A DNA stretch of 64,000 nucleotides from NCBI RefSeq assembly GCF_012863495.1, contig NZ_JAAVJL010000004.1, forward strand, positions 236,501-300,500, written 5' to 3'. This DNA is from Pseudanabaena yagii GIHE-NHR1 (GTDB lineage Bacteria > Cyanobacteriota > Cyanobacteriia > Pseudanabaenales > Pseudanabaenaceae). The notes under the pieces are model-generated. The model was not told the DNA's origin. It saw nothing but the letters and a program-made list of their open reading frames with translations, and ran no database searches. Position numbers and translations under genes: made by a program. Positions 2,954 to 56,112 of the stretch are shown here, piece by piece (the first letter of the stretch is position 1; every line of letters begins with the position of its first letter).

Positions 2954-3058
2954 TAAGTAGGCAGGTGCAATTAAATAATAAAACCCCAAAACCTGTGGTG
3001 CACGCTGCGCGTGCACCACAGGTTTTGGCTCTGGTTTTTAATTATGCCAAGCTACTTA
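2954..3058. repeat. Family A 105-bp palindromic element (copy A1)
   Basis: Bounded by TAAGTAG and CTACTTA, with the palindromic core at 2986-3028 (CCAAAACCTGTGGTGCAC, apex, complement). AT-rich spacers similar to GGTTTTTAATTATGCC lie between core and ends. It has the same length and design as the copy inside the coding sequence at 34258-34362. Related copies are at 10177-10252, 43251-43325 and 53832-53918. Confidence 0.9.
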
Positions 3059-10176: not shown

Positions 10177-10252
10177 TAAGTAGCTGGGCATAATTAAAAA
10201 CCAGAGTCAAAAGCTGTGGCGCACGCTACGCGTGCGCCACAGCTTTTGGGGT
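10177..10252. repeat. Family A palindromic element (copy A2, truncated)
   Basis: Starts TAAGTAGCTGGGCATAATTA, the same left end as the copy at 34258, with the core at 10208-10248 (CAAAAGCTGTGGCGCACG and complement). The right half after the core is missing; a family B element starts at once, as if B was inserted into or joined to A. Confidence 0.85.
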
Positions 10253-10325
10253 TGCTTAGGACATAAAACCCAAAATAAAAGTGGCGCAAAGCGCCACTTT
10301 TATTTTGGGTTTTGATTTGTCTCAT
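10253..10325. repeat. Family B palindromic element (copy B2)
   Basis: TTAGGACATAAAACCCAAAA leads into a palindrome with GGCGCAAAGCGCC apex and ends with TTTTGATTTGTCTCA. The flanks match B1 at 2589-2700 while the arm sequence differs but remains self-complementary. Confidence 0.85.
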
Positions 10326-12016: not shown

Positions 12017-12130
12017 TATAGCAGTCCTAAATCATTTATGAGAAAAATAGGGCTTCGACTTCGCTCAGCCATCGGGATACGATGGCTGAGCGAAGTCGAA
12101 GCCTCTCTCAACTCATTTAGGATTGCTATA
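12017..12130. repeat. 114-bp element with TATAGC terminal inverted repeats and family C core (C4)
   Basis: The ends are TATAGCAGTCCTAAAT and ATTTAGGATTGCTATA, which are near-perfect inverted copies. The interior has a GCTTCGACTTCGCTCAGCCA inverted repeat, the same core as the family C copies but with different flanks. The structure is that of a non-autonomous mobile element (inference). It sits after the CHAD stop. Confidence 0.85.
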
Positions 12131-12220
12131 GAAGGGATGCTGTCTATAAACAGAATGAAGATATATCAATACCATGCAAAATTATCGATGGTTAACAAAC
12201 GCTCGCCAAAAGAGCGCTTA

Positions 12221-15944: not shown

Positions 15945-16041
15945 AATTAAAGTACCTGTGGCTTCGACTCCGCTCAGCCAACGTTAGCTGAGCGAAGTCG
16001 AAGCTAGATAACTTTGGTGCGACATTTTTTATCTGCAAGAG
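15945..16041 (+). repeat. Family C palindromic element (copy C2)
   Basis: AATTAAAGTACCTGTGGCTT begins the element; the core is GCTTCGACTCCGCTCAGCCA, short centre, complement. The tail CTAGATAACTTTGGTGCGA through ATCTGCAAGAG matches C1 at 2487-2584 in reverse. It lies between two minus-strand genes. Confidence 0.85.
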
Positions 16042-33249: not shown

Positions 33250-34404
33250 TTAGGGAATCAAGGGAATATTTTGGCTCCGCGTAAATTGTTCATAGGCTGA
33301 GACTAAGGTTAGGCTATATAAGCTTTGAAATTTGTAGTCTTTGTAAGCATCGGGCACTTTGGCAAATTTCTCTAGGACTTGTTCCTTAGTCAAGTTTTGC
33401 GCTTTCCATTGAAATGCTAAATTTTCTAACCAGCTAAAGTAAGTTTGCTGATCTTTTACACCAGTCACATCCGTAACTTCTCCTTCTCCGGGCACAACTT
33501 TAGCATTGGGGAAATTCGTAATTAAGCGAGCTAAGCTACCTTGCCACTTACGAATATCACTATCACCAGTGTAGGGAATTCGTTTATGAAAAACCATATC
33601 CCCAGTAAATAAAACCTTAGCATCAGGTACATAAACGACCAAATCAGTGCCAGCCGCATGACCATCTACAGGCTCAATTTTGACTTGGCGATCGCCTAAC
33701 CAAAGATCGAGGGTGACTTGACTATTGAGGACTAAATTAGGAGGTGTAAAGCCCTTTGTCCCATCTTTGCCCATGTAAATATATTCACGAATTGCCCCAC
33801 GTCCAATCACAGGAATACCCAACTTGATAAAAGTGGTGTTGCCCCCAGTGCGCGCAAAATGATAATGCGTATTTAAAACATATTTAATGGGTTTATCTGT
33901 GAGTGATTTCACCGTTGCGATCATCAGTTCTGCTAATTGTGGTGAATGAAAGGGATCGATCACCAAAACGCTATCACTACCAATGACAATCCCCCCATTA
34001 CAAATTGCCACCGTCTGTATTACTGGTGGAATATCAGCATTAGCAACTAGGGCATAAACTCCTTGCCCCACCTTTTGTAATTTTAAGCCAGCATCTTGTA
34101 AACCAATTTTTTTAACCACTGGCAATGGTTTATCTTTCGATGTTGGTTTCGGTGTTTGCGTAGGTGCTGCTTTAGGTGCTTGTTTTTGCGCCTGCGCTTG
34201 AGATGTCGCAGGAAGCAAACTATCGCTCATCAACATCATGATGGTAGCGATCGCTGTTAAGTAGCTGGGCATAGTTAAAACCCAGAACCCAAAACTGTGG
34301 CGCACGCTGCGCGATCGCCACAGTTTTGGGGGTTTTATATTTAATTGCGTCCAGTTACTTAGTACTAGATCTATATAGCTTGGTTTTTTGAAATTTTTTA
34401 GCAT
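33250..34404 (-). CDS. Degenerate metallo-beta-lactamase-fold paralogue with an in-frame repeat insertion
   Basis: A 384-residue MBL-fold protein, clearly a paralogue of the next gene (34484-35506), with about 300 residues that align well. The family HxHxDH motif reads HYHFAR here against HYHFDH in the paralogue, and the later PGHG is PGEG. So at least three metal ligands are lost, and it is unlikely to be a normal hydrolase. Residues 15-49 are encoded by a family A repeat, which splits the signal region. An ATG at residue 45, inside the repeat, could restart translation with MPSYLTAIAT and restore a signal peptide. I list the full open frame; the true start is uncertain. Confidence 0.75.
   Translation of the reverse strand: MLKNFKKPSYIDLVLSNWTQLNIKPPKLWRSRSVRHSFGFWVLTMPSYLTAIATIMMLMSDSLLPATSQAQAQKQAPKAAPTQTPKPTSKDKPLPVVKKIGLQDAGLKLQKVGQGVYALVANADIPPVIQTVAICNGGIVIGSDSVLVIDPFHSPQLAELMIATVKSLTDKPIKYVLNTHYHFARTGGNTTFIKLGIPVIGRGAIREYIYMGKDGTKGFTPPNLVLNSQVTLDLWLGDRQVKIEPVDGHAAGTDLVVYVPDAKVLFTGDMVFHKRIPYTGDSDIRKWQGSLARLITNFPNAKVVPGEGEVTDVTGVKDQQTYFSWLENLAFQWKAQNLTKEQVLEKFAKVPDAYKDYKFQSLYSLTLVSAYEQFTRSQNIPLIP
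34258..34362 (-). repeat. Family A 105-bp palindromic element inside a coding sequence (copy A3)
   Basis: Bounded by TAAGTAG and a TTACTTAG-like end, with core GTGGCGCACGCTGCGCGATCG and its complement slightly broken by a HIP1-like site. It is exactly 105 bp, 35 codons, so the host reading frame stays open. It lies inside the region encoding the signal peptide of the degenerate MBL gene. Removing it leaves MLKNFKKPSYIDLV followed by TAIATIMMLM. Confidence 0.85.
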
Positions 34405-34483: not shown

Positions 34484-35506
34484 TTAAGGAATCAAGGGAA
34501 TAGTTCTGCTACGAGTAAATTGCTCATAGGCGGACTCTAAATTTAGAGTATAGATCCCTTTAAATTTGTAGTCTTTGTAAGCATCAGGTACTTTCGCGAA
34601 TTTCTCTAATACTTGCTCCTTAGTTAAAATCTGAGCTTTCCATTCCAAGGCTGTGCGCTCTAACCAACTGAAATAAGCTTGCTGAGCTTGTAAGCCAGTG
34701 ACATCAGTGACATCACCATGTCCGGGGACAACCTTCGCTTCAGGGAAAGTGGCGATCAAGCGATACAAGCTGCCTTGCCATTGACGAATATCACTATCAC
34801 CAGTGTAGGGAATCCGCTTATTGAAAACCATATCGCCTGTGAATAAAACCTTGGCATCGGGAACATAGGCAACCAGATCCGTACCCGCCGAATGTCCATC
34901 GACACGTTCAATGCGGACTTGGCGATCGCCTAGCCAAATATCAGTCTGGCTATTGACAATCACCGTTGGTGGGGTAATGCCATTAGTATTATTTTTTCCG
35001 CTCTGGATATATTCACGAATTACACCACGTCCAATCACAGGAATATTTTGCTTTACAAAGGCAACGTTACCGCCTGTATGGTCAAAGTGATAGTGGGTAT
35101 TCAAAACATACTTGATTGGCTTATCTGTCAGGGATTTTACTGTCGCAATCAATAGTTCAGCTAAATCTGAGGTTTGAAATGGGTCAATCACTAACACACT
35201 CTCGCTACCGATGACAATCCCACCATTAGCGATCGCTACCGCAGGACTCGCAGGTGGAAAATCAGTACTAGCAATCAGTGCATATACACCTTGAGCAACC
35301 TCTTGCAACTGTAAACCAGCATTTTGCAAACTAATAGTTTGAAGCGGTGCTTCCGCAGGTTTTTGGGCTTGCTTTTGAACTTGATTTTGTGACTGATTTT
35401 GAGCTACCACAGGCTCCCAACTTTGCCCAATTGTCATTGACATGATGGCTGCGATCGCCGCAAGAGCAAAGGCAAGAAGGTGATTAAGCTTTAGCTTTTT
35501 CAGCAT
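34484..35506 (-). CDS. MBL-fold metallo-hydrolase, exported
   Basis: A 340-residue exported protein. Signal peptide about residues 1-36 (FALAAIAAIMSMTIG, then VAQN), followed by a Gln/Ala linker. The MBL domain has an intact HYHFDHTGG motif, DGHSAGTD, TGDMVFNKR and PGHGDVTD, the set of ligands for two zinc ions. The substrate is unknown; similar exported MBL proteins in cyanobacteria are unassigned. It is 79 bases upstream of the degenerate paralogue, in the same direction, so the pair arose by tandem duplication (inference). Confidence 0.88.
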   Translation of the reverse strand: MLKKLKLNHLLAFALAAIAAIMSMTIGQSWEPVVAQNQSQNQVQKQAQKPAEAPLQTISLQNAGLQLQEVAQGVYALIASTDFPPASPAVAIANGGIVIGSESVLVIDPFQTSDLAELLIATVKSLTDKPIKYVLNTHYHFDHTGGNVAFVKQNIPVIGRGVIREYIQSGKNNTNGITPPTVIVNSQTDIWLGDRQVRIERVDGHSAGTDLVAYVPDAKVLFTGDMVFNKRIPYTGDSDIRQWQGSLYRLIATFPEAKVVPGHGDVTDVTGLQAQQAYFSWLERTALEWKAQILTKEQVLEKFAKVPDAYKDYKFKGIYTLNLESAYEQFTRSRTIPLIP

Positions 35507-42302: not shown

Positions 42303-42396
42303 TATAGCGATCGCTAGTCTAATGATGCAAATTTCCCCTCTTCGGCGAGAAATTTGTCCTATCTGCTTGAAAATCGCTAACTAGCAATCGCTATAT
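42303..42396. repeat. Element with TATAGCGATCGCTAG terminal inverted repeats
   Basis: ATATAGCGATCGCTAGT on the left and CTAGCAATCGCTATAT on the right. An internal hairpin AAATTTCCCCTCTTCGGCGA GAAATTT has a CTTCGG apex. It forms the outer part of a repeat cluster that continues to 42575. Confidence 0.7.
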
Positions 42397-42575
42397 TTCT
42401 ATAAAAGGCATGTTCAAAATCTGTAGTTACTACACTTCGCGCAGTAACTATAGTAGAAATAGAGATCGCTATATTTCTATAAAAGTTATGCCCCAATCAT
42501 GTATCTACTGCGCTTCGCGCAGTAGATACATAAACTAGCGATCGCTATATTTTTGTAAAAGCCATGCTCCAACTT
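42383..42575 (-). repeat. Three tandem copies of a Uma2 gene 3' end with interspersed hairpins
   Basis: The segment ending TATAGCGATCG on the minus strand, which encodes the last residues (AWLLQKYSDR) of the Uma2 protein, occurs at 42537-42575 and again, degenerate, at 42462-42500 and 42383-42420. Spacing is 76 and 78 bases. Palindromes GTAGTTACT... (apex CTTCGCGCAG) and GTATCTACTGCGCTTCGCGC lie between copies. Confidence 0.8.
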
Positions 42576-43221
42576 CAGATTGAGATTTTTCGCGGCTGAG
42601 TCTTAGGGCAAATTCGAGATCAGCGATCGCTAAACCACCTAACAACTTCGACTCTGTAATCTGACGACTGCCTCCATCGATCATTTCAAAGGCAATGATT
42701 TTTACTTCTTGGACATCAACAACCCAATATTCACTAGCCCCCAATTGCTCATAAAGTAATCGTTTCTTGCCTAAGTCGTCGCCTAGTGTAGAACTAGATA
42801 TTTCAATCACCAAATTAGGAACGGCAAATTCATCAAGATTTACTACAGAGTTGCTGCGTGGAGCTAAACTTGCAGATTCACCGATGTAGTAAGAGATATC
42901 GGGCTGACACCCTTGAACTCCTGTTTTTGTATAGCTGCAATTGATCAAACCTCTTGCAGGAATAGCTGCCAATGTGCAGTACAAGCTAATTGCAAAAAGA
43001 GTCATGCCATGATCGAGTGCGTGTGCAGAGTTAACTAACTCTGTTTCAATCCTCATTTGCCTAAATTGATTTTTGTCGTAATAACATCGCGAGTCTGCAT
43101 ATAGAGGATTTTCGAGAATCTGCACAAACTCTTCCCATGTTGCGCTAATCCATTGATCGGTAATGAGTGGCTGGGATATTGGCTCTTGATTTTTGAGACG
43201 AGGAGTAGCGATCGCTGTCAT
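42535..43221 (-). CDS. Uma2 family (DUF820) putative endonuclease
   Basis: A 228-residue protein. PD-(D/E)xK positions are visible: PDISYYIGES, the Glu in LVIEISSSTL and the Lys in GDDLGKKRLLYEQLG; the tail EYWVVDVQEVKI is typical. Family function is unclear. Its stop codon lies in a TATAGCGATCGCTAG repeat, and copies of its last about 36 bases recur twice downstream. The N-terminal 40 residues are extra compared with the 187-residue copy at 21021. Confidence 0.88.
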   Translation of the reverse strand: MTAIATPRLKNQEPISQPLITDQWISATWEEFVQILENPLYADSRCYYDKNQFRQMRIETELVNSAHALDHGMTLFAISLYCTLAAIPARGLINCSYTKTGVQGCQPDISYYIGESASLAPRSNSVVNLDEFAVPNLVIEISSSTLGDDLGKKRLLYEQLGASEYWVVDVQEVKIIAFEMIDGGSRQITESKLLGGLAIADLEFALRLSREKSQSEVGAWLLQKYSDR

Positions 43222-43250: not shown

Positions 43251-43325
43251 ATAAAACCCAAAAAGCTGTGGCGCACGCTGCGCGTGCGCCACAGCTTTTT
43301 GGGTTTTATATTTGCGCCTAGCTAG
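43251..43325. repeat. Family A palindromic element (copy A4)
   Basis: ATAAAACCCAAAAAGCTGTG GCGCACG and complement, ending TTTGGGTTTTATATTTGCGCC. The core matches A1 and A2; the outer TAAGTAG end is not clear on the left. It lies upstream of both the Uma2 gene and sbtA. Confidence 0.8.
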
Positions 43326-48724: not shown

Positions 48725-48789
48725 ACTAAAGTACCTGTGGCTTCGACTTCGCTTAGCCAACGTTAGCTGAGCGAAGTCGAAGCTAGATC
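48725..48789 (+). repeat. Family C palindromic element (copy C3, truncated)
   Basis: ACTAAAGTACCTGTGGCTTC GAC with the core and CGAAGCTAGATCACT. It ends before the ACTTTGGTG segment found in C1 and C2. It lies next to the K+ channel gene stop. Confidence 0.85.
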
Positions 48790-48794
48790 ACTCT

Positions 48795-53831: not shown

Positions 53832-53918
53832 CTTACTTACAGACCCAAAAACTGTGGCGCACGCTGTGCGTGCGCCACAGTTTTTGGGGTTTATATTTAA
53901 TTGCACCCATTTACTTAG
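53832..53918. repeat. Family A palindromic element (copy A5)
   Basis: Core 53845-53887 (CCAAAAACTGTGGCGCACG and complement), with GGTTTATATTTAATTGCACC and CTTAG at the right end. It lies between rpe and the PiT gene. Confidence 0.85.
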
Positions 53919-55400: not shown

Positions 55401-55603
55401 TTATTCTAAAAGCTGTGCAAAGCACCGCTTTTAATCTTCTTATCTTTGTGATGATTGCCACCAACGCATTATTCTAAAATCTTTGCAAAGCAAAATTTCT
55501 AATCTTCTTATCTTTGTGATGATTGCCACCAACGCATTATTCCAAAACCTTTGCAAAGCAAAGGTTTTAATCTTCTTGCCTATCCATAGATCGCCACCAA
55601 CGG
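55401..55603 (-). repeat. Three tandem 68-bp units repeating the mreD 3' end with hairpins
   Basis: Units at 55401-55468, 55469-55536 and 55537-55603. Each contains a hairpin with GCAAAGC apex and a copy of the last bases of mreD, on the minus strand TTGGTGGC...AGAAGATTA. The last unit overlaps the true mreD end. The hairpin arms differ between units but remain paired. Confidence 0.9.
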
Positions 55604-56112
55604 CTAAGCGGGAAATAAATTACTGGCGACCATAAGCTACTTAAAATTGCGGAACTTAGGGCAATTCTTTGCTGCAAAATCCATACATTATCCATTTTTG
55701 CGCCCATCATAGTTAGCTGGACTGCGTGCATTGTCTCCACAATTACCGCCATTCCAAACACAATTAAGGCGATCGAAATGAAATCTTCCTGTACATAGCG
55801 TTGCTTTTGCAAGAGCGATGTAATCCCACCAGCGATCGCTAGTCCTAGAACATGAGTCGGTGCAACTCGTACATCGGCAAAGGTCATCCCATCCTGCACC
55901 ATGCCTAGAGCAATCCCAACCATCACCGATAGAAAAACAGGACGATTCACACTCCAAGCTACTAACCAAATGAGTAACCAGTTAGGAGCAATTCCCATCA
56001 AAGTCATTCCCGGAAATCGGGTATACATCGCTAAGACACACAATACCAATGAACCAAGGGTTATCGCCCAGTTCAAAAGCTTTTTAGATAAAGACGTATT
56101 GCGATCGAGCAT
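55567..56112 (-). CDS. mreD: Rod shape-determining protein MreD
   Basis: A 181-residue membrane protein with about five helices (residues about 13-170). It is weakly conserved, but position right after mreC and size fit MreD. It works with MreB and MreC in the elongation machinery. Its start abuts the mreC stop with no gap. Its last bases (RWWRSMDRQED) are repeated in tandem downstream, which does not change the protein. Confidence 0.88.
   Translation of the reverse strand: MLDRNTSLSKKLLNWAITLGSLVLCVLAMYTRFPGMTLMGIAPNWLLIWLVAWSVNRPVFLSVMVGIALGMVQDGMTFADVRVAPTHVLGLAIAGGITSLLQKQRYVQEDFISIALIVFGMAVIVETMHAVQLTMMGAKMDNVWILQQRIALSSAILSSLWSPVIYFPLSRWWRSMDRQED

Follow-up and report, generated by a model that had tools for sequence, protein, structure and literature searches.

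The locus raises the question of how a palindromic repeat came to lie, in frame, within the signal-peptide region of a protein gene, and how that gene has fared since. The window analysed here is the whole stretch of 64,000 nt; the rest of its own genome (G000) and other Pseudanabaena genomes were searched alongside it. The repeat is best described as an IS630-type MITE, which very probably inserted in frame into an MBL-fold gene in the common ancestor of G000 and the sister species G002; the signal peptide was likely kept and the gene has remained under selection. The features are collected in Table 1.

Table 1. Features of the insertion locus and other copies of the MITE family, in positions of the window
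Feature	Position	Strand	Remarks
IS630-type MITE, palindromic, 104 bp	34258..34361	-	imperfect terminal inverted repeats TAAGTAGCTGGGCATA.. / TAAGTAACTGGACGCA..; TA duplication; net 102 bp = 34 codons
Left copy of TA target-site duplication	34258..34259		empty sites hold exactly one TA
Right copy of TA target-site duplication	34360..34361		empty sites hold exactly one TA
Inner hairpin core CCCAAAACTGTGGCG...CGCCACAGTTTTGGG	34288..34332		compensatory changes among copies
Host gene, 384-aa probably secreted MBL-fold protein (Pfam Lactamase_B)	33250..34404	-	metal-ligand motifs degraded: HYHFAR; VPGEGE
Tandem paralogue, no insert, intact HYHFDH / VPGHGD	34484..35506	-	
Full-length copy, same MITE family, intergenic, 105 bp	2954..3058		
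Partial copy: left end and core, right end absent	10177..10253		
Partial copy: core and right end	53837..53917		repeat families D5, D16
Copy with core alone	43251..43305		repeat families D4, D5

The sequence of the element is TAAGTAGCTGGGCATAGTTAAAACC...GGTTTTATATTTAATTGCGTCCAGTTACTTA, with the outermost bases TAAGTAG...TTACTTA. An earlier note on this DNA had described a palindromic repeat of 105 bp at 34258-34362; it is indeed a palindrome, but is 104 bp long and ends one base sooner, at 34361. The added residues are 16-49 (SNWTQLNIKPPKLWRSRSVRHSFGFWVLTMPSYL, 34 codons), since one TA of the pair is target sequence; the previous count of exactly 35 codons (residues 15-49) has to be corrected to this net gain of 102 bp. 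Two further statements of that note stand: the frame runs through the MITE without a stop, within the 384-aa ORF, and the MITE brings a new ATG at codon 45. The MITE itself has no evident function. At 34311-34318 the copy in the MBL gene has GCGATCGC, the HIP1 octamer of cyanobacteria; other copies have GCGTGCGC, and GCGATCGC was found in 0 of the 37 others compared.

Insertion was examined by joining both flanks of the G000 copies with one TA and comparing the result with the sister species. Four occupied/empty pairs were obtained, each with exactly one TA at the empty site: the MBL site and L058 are empty in G021, and L021 and L102 are empty in G002. The G021 orthologue at the MBL site reads GCGATCGCAGT-TA-AACC and contains no MITE. 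At several other loci, G000 and G002 both carry the MITE. Duplication of a TA target is a hallmark of IS630/Tc1-mariner elements, and the four empty sites are direct evidence of insertion with TA duplication. The proposal that these elements (termed family A in the earlier note) move or are copied is thereby borne out, and the empty site that was to be sought in orthologues is present in G021.

The MITE family is large. A 22-nt pattern of its ends occurred 3 times in the window vs 0 expected, and 91 times in the whole of G000 at up to three mismatches vs 0 for a reversed control pattern; this occurrence is not by chance. The blastn search with the MITE found 40 distinct places in G000, and the union of these with the close end matches gave about 59 sites. 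Matches were present in all 26 Pseudanabaena genomes searched, and plasmids of Pseudanabaena sp. ABRG5-3 also carry the MITE, with no feature annotated under the match. The copies are short (mostly 93-105 bp), numerous and devoid of a transposase gene, as is usual for MITEs of the IS630 type. The 104-bp copies share a mean identity of 81% (best pair 95%), and so give no sign of a very recent burst. Within the window, the same ends and core had been assigned to copies at 2954-3058 and 10177-10252; the former is complete, whereas the latter has the left end and core but misses the right end. The palindrome centre occurs in two orientations among the G000 copies (CACGCTGCGCGTG, n=12; CACGCGCAGCGTG, n=7) and differs at the MBL site between G000 and G002 (L062). 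The centre seems to invert, perhaps through template switching in the hairpin. Other MITE subfamilies with TAAGTAGCTAGGCATAA-like ends and different cores were also observed (L095 3333-3432, L096 2880-2974, and L098 3093-3197), which suggests that several MITE lines derived from related IS630 elements.

The ends also connect this hairpin family to IS elements. A 1109-bp IS630-family element with split, degenerate ORFs (L350; C1:2882871-2883979 of G000) matches the MITE at both ends: its ends are TAAGTAGGTAGGCAGAATTAAATATAA and TAAGTAGTTAGGCAGAAATAAATATAAAAC, and typical MITE ends are TAAGTAGCTGGGCATAATTAAA and TAAGTAGCTGGGCGCAATTAAATATAAAAC. An IS relic in G002, with the end TAAGTAGCTAGGCATAATTAAATATAAAAC, is nearer still to the MITE over one end. 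The ends of these two elements are identical to those of the MBL-gene copy at 19-25 of the 30 outer positions, and AATTAAATATAAAAC is identical in the right end of that copy and the G002 relic. The terminal inverted repeats are thus common to the MITE and IS630 elements. The related IS also carry IS630 transposase sequences: their split ORFs match NF033545 (IS630) with E values of 9e-17 to 2e-25, although none reaches the cutoff for the whole protein, and the DDE part of the G000 element matches the same model (E 3.7e-19, under the curated cutoff). The 26 genomes yielded no intact copy of the IS that matches the MITE best, and those in G000 and G002 are both broken. A second IS630 element (L091, L093, and L094) has longer ORFs in two reading frames and a match to Pfam DDE_3. 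It was rejected as the parent of the MITE; its ends match only over the outer ~17 bp, and the L350 element fits both MITE ends better. The MBL-site case links a large Pseudanabaena hairpin family to IS630.

The host gene is one of a tandem pair. Among the relatives of the MBL protein, named Pseudanabaena genomes ranked first, by which the window was assigned to this genus. Its product has lost the aspartate and last histidine of HxHxDH (HYHFAR) and the histidine of GHG (GEG) in G000, G002 and G021. These changes predate the insertion, because they are present in all three species, including G021 with the empty site. The insert-bearing paralogue is likely a pseudoenzyme, as judged from its motifs. 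A similar pattern (HYHAVR / GRG) is seen in PDB 8d2z. G002 has the MITE at the same base of the gene, with the frame open, so the insertion is not specific to one strain. The G021 orthologue has the same start region (MLKNF...) and a signal peptide of normal length, in agreement with the earlier reading of the N terminus without the repeat. Most simply, the insertion would have occurred on the branch to G000 and G002, unless G021 lost the element precisely; a gain in this ancestor seems the better reading. The dN/dS of the mature domain is 0.048 between G000 and G002 and about 0.09 from the insert-bearing species to G021, and that of the intact paralogue is 0.018. Purifying selection has continued to act on the gene while it carried the insert. 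Between G000 and G002 the dN/dS of the adjoining linker is 0.68 and that of the insert is 0.6, a value with little power for or against constraint, because the insert holds just 7 substitutions. G038 at first seemed to share the MBL insert (match to query 27-384, with stops), but this was rejected: what it has is an independent, divergent copy of a related MITE (L363, about 1466-1560), which lies in the leader some 40 bp upstream of its intact MBL gene.

The insertion is best explained as follows. An IS630-type transposase acting in trans would have placed the MITE at a TA in codon 15. The target was a duplicated MBL-fold gene whose product is probably non-catalytic, and the event would date to the common ancestor of G000 and its sister G002. 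The net length of 102 bp and the open frame would then have kept the reading through the MITE. In the frame and orientation used in the MBL gene, 11 of the 21 copies of 104 bp have no stop codon (15 of 126 frames are open when all six are counted); a net length that is a multiple of three, together with a frame open in about half of these copies, accounts for the preserved reading frame. The peptide in this frame is basic and then hydrophobic (consensus RTRSVRHRFWFWFLIMPSYL). The MITE-encoded residues of the MBL protein are KLWRSRSVRHS-FGFWVLTMPSYL, and their join with the host h-region gives FGFWVLTMPSYLTAIATIMMLM. The best 18-residue hydropathy falls from 1.94 to 1.67 with the insert. Since the insert is basic and then hydrophobic and this drop is small, the N terminus is predicted to remain a signal peptide, its basic n-region now extended. 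By eye and by hydropathy, the likeliest product keeps its signal peptide, with the n-region lengthened and in part MITE-derived, and the MITE segment plausibly replaced part of the original one. That the segment has been domesticated, so that its translation is now a working signal-peptide segment of a secreted pseudoenzyme, is a doubtful further step; if true, a bacterial MITE would be the source of a functional protein-targeting module.

Other readings of the same data were considered. Translation may start at the MITE ATG (residue 45) or at later ATGs, which would leave the first 44 codons as a leader outside the product. The codon-45 ATG is kept in G000 and G002, and the coding strand of the MITE folds strongly (MFE -47.8 kcal/mol, z -7.4) and could hinder ribosomes; however, in the G021 gene, which lacks the MITE, both the original start and the context upstream of it are conserved, and no stop interrupts the frame from M1 in either insert-bearing species. 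Moreover, a signal peptide is expected to have a basic n-region; the full product does, and MPSYLTAIATIMMLM does not. We regard such a start as unlikely. The lost metal-ligand motifs and the fast evolution of the insert and neighbouring linker (dN/dS 0.6-0.7) could instead mean that the gene is a decaying pseudogene, in which the insert survives for want of selection. The low dN/dS of the mature domain argues against decay, both between the insert-bearing species and towards G021, and neither stops nor frameshifts were found in the gene in the three species; this explanation is very improbable.

The strength of the hairpin bears on the remaining alternative, a REPIN or an RNA element (terminator, sRNA or riboswitch) in place of a MITE. 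The folding is strong on both strands (z -7.4 and -9.2), and compensatory changes in the core stem were found among the copies (19 double-change cells and 26 broken, of 760). These changes fit selection on the hairpin and copying between the palindrome arms alike. Against an RNA element or REPIN stand the TA duplications with their clean empty sites and the ends common to the MITE and IS630 elements; the search of Rfam gave no match near the gathering score, all being far below it. The REPIN/RAYT type shows no target-site duplication and goes with a linked RAYT (Y1) transposase, whereas the present family duplicates TA and has DDE-type IS630 relatives. Such an origin is the least probable of the readings weighed here, and the IS630-type MITE is preferred.

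In-frame residence within genes proved to be rare among the copies tested. Open frames spanning the MITE were examined for 35 copies in G000 and for 36 copies in 1.74 Mb of G002. Among the 35, the MBL copy alone is flanked on either side by a long host frame that belongs to a recognised gene. At L027 a 150-aa frame spans the MITE, and its conserved part appears to start after the element; the spanning frames at L006 and L013 are short. The MBL site is also the only clear in-gene case among the 36 copies of G002, where one more frame that spans the element (E2880k 78509) seems to reflect a MITE just upstream of a gene starting with MQDFNW. Candidate in-gene insertions at G021 C1:824164, G009 C509:6606, G002 C1:1359411 and C1:2729339 of the own genome were rejected as MITEs just upstream of genes, with open frames running into the element, and that at G014 C36:6369 as a MITE just past a gene, again with an open frame running into it. 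Tolerance in coding sequence, which the earlier note had claimed for these elements, thus holds at the MBL site but not as a general trait (1 site among the 35 and 36 copies); among the copies tested it is the exception.

Similar elements have been described in other bacteria. Cyanobacterial MITEs, especially those of the IS630 type (examples are Nezha and the MITEs of Anabaena PCC 7120 and Microcystis), are of the same short, palindromic, non-autonomous type, share inverted repeats with IS elements, and occur in many copies, mostly outside genes. The MITEs of Anabaena PCC 7120 and Microcystis are cited in the review PMC10969869. In contrast to these MITEs, the Pseudanabaena sequence family was seen only in Pseudanabaena (26 genomes and the ABRG5-3 plasmids; other genera were covered through a plasmid collection). 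The same review cites MITEs of Anabaena PCC 7120 that have intragenic ORFs (J. Bacteriol. 2010, 192:5289) and which, like the present one, are cyanobacterial MITEs contributing ORF sequence; those elements carry other names there (MITEb and MITEe) and are set apart by name. The literature searched contained no paper joining Pseudanabaena, MITE and transposable.

The Rickettsia palindromic elements (Ogata 2000, 2002, as cited in PMC10969869) are about 100-150 bp long, lie in frame in protein genes and are translated as an added peptide; according to this review, in-frame MITE fusions are not unusual, and the Rickettsia elements are the extreme case. The palindrome at the MBL site is likewise in frame in a protein gene and read as an added peptide. 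However, the Rickettsia elements are often found in genes, whereas the Pseudanabaena MITE is in a gene and in frame only at the MBL site among the copies tested; it also differs from them in having a known related transposase. The view of the MBL-site insertion as ordinary transposition, a well-bracketed case of a known phenomenon, is well supported. The site is cleanly bracketed: G000 and G002 carry the MITE, G021 lacks it, and the adjoining tandem paralogue is unoccupied. It shows that a MITE can enter a gene in frame and stay there while purifying selection acts on that gene, and it suggests a reason why insertion into the signal-peptide region is tolerated; the point of interest is a possible export role of the MITE-derived residues.

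The window also contains a second hairpin repeat family (GGCTTCGACT...AGTCGAAGC) in several copies (2512-2577, 12083-12141, 15948-16013, and 48727-48792), and short tandem repeats at 55401-55604 (68 bp, 3 copies) and 42379-42600 (about 77 bp, 3 copies).
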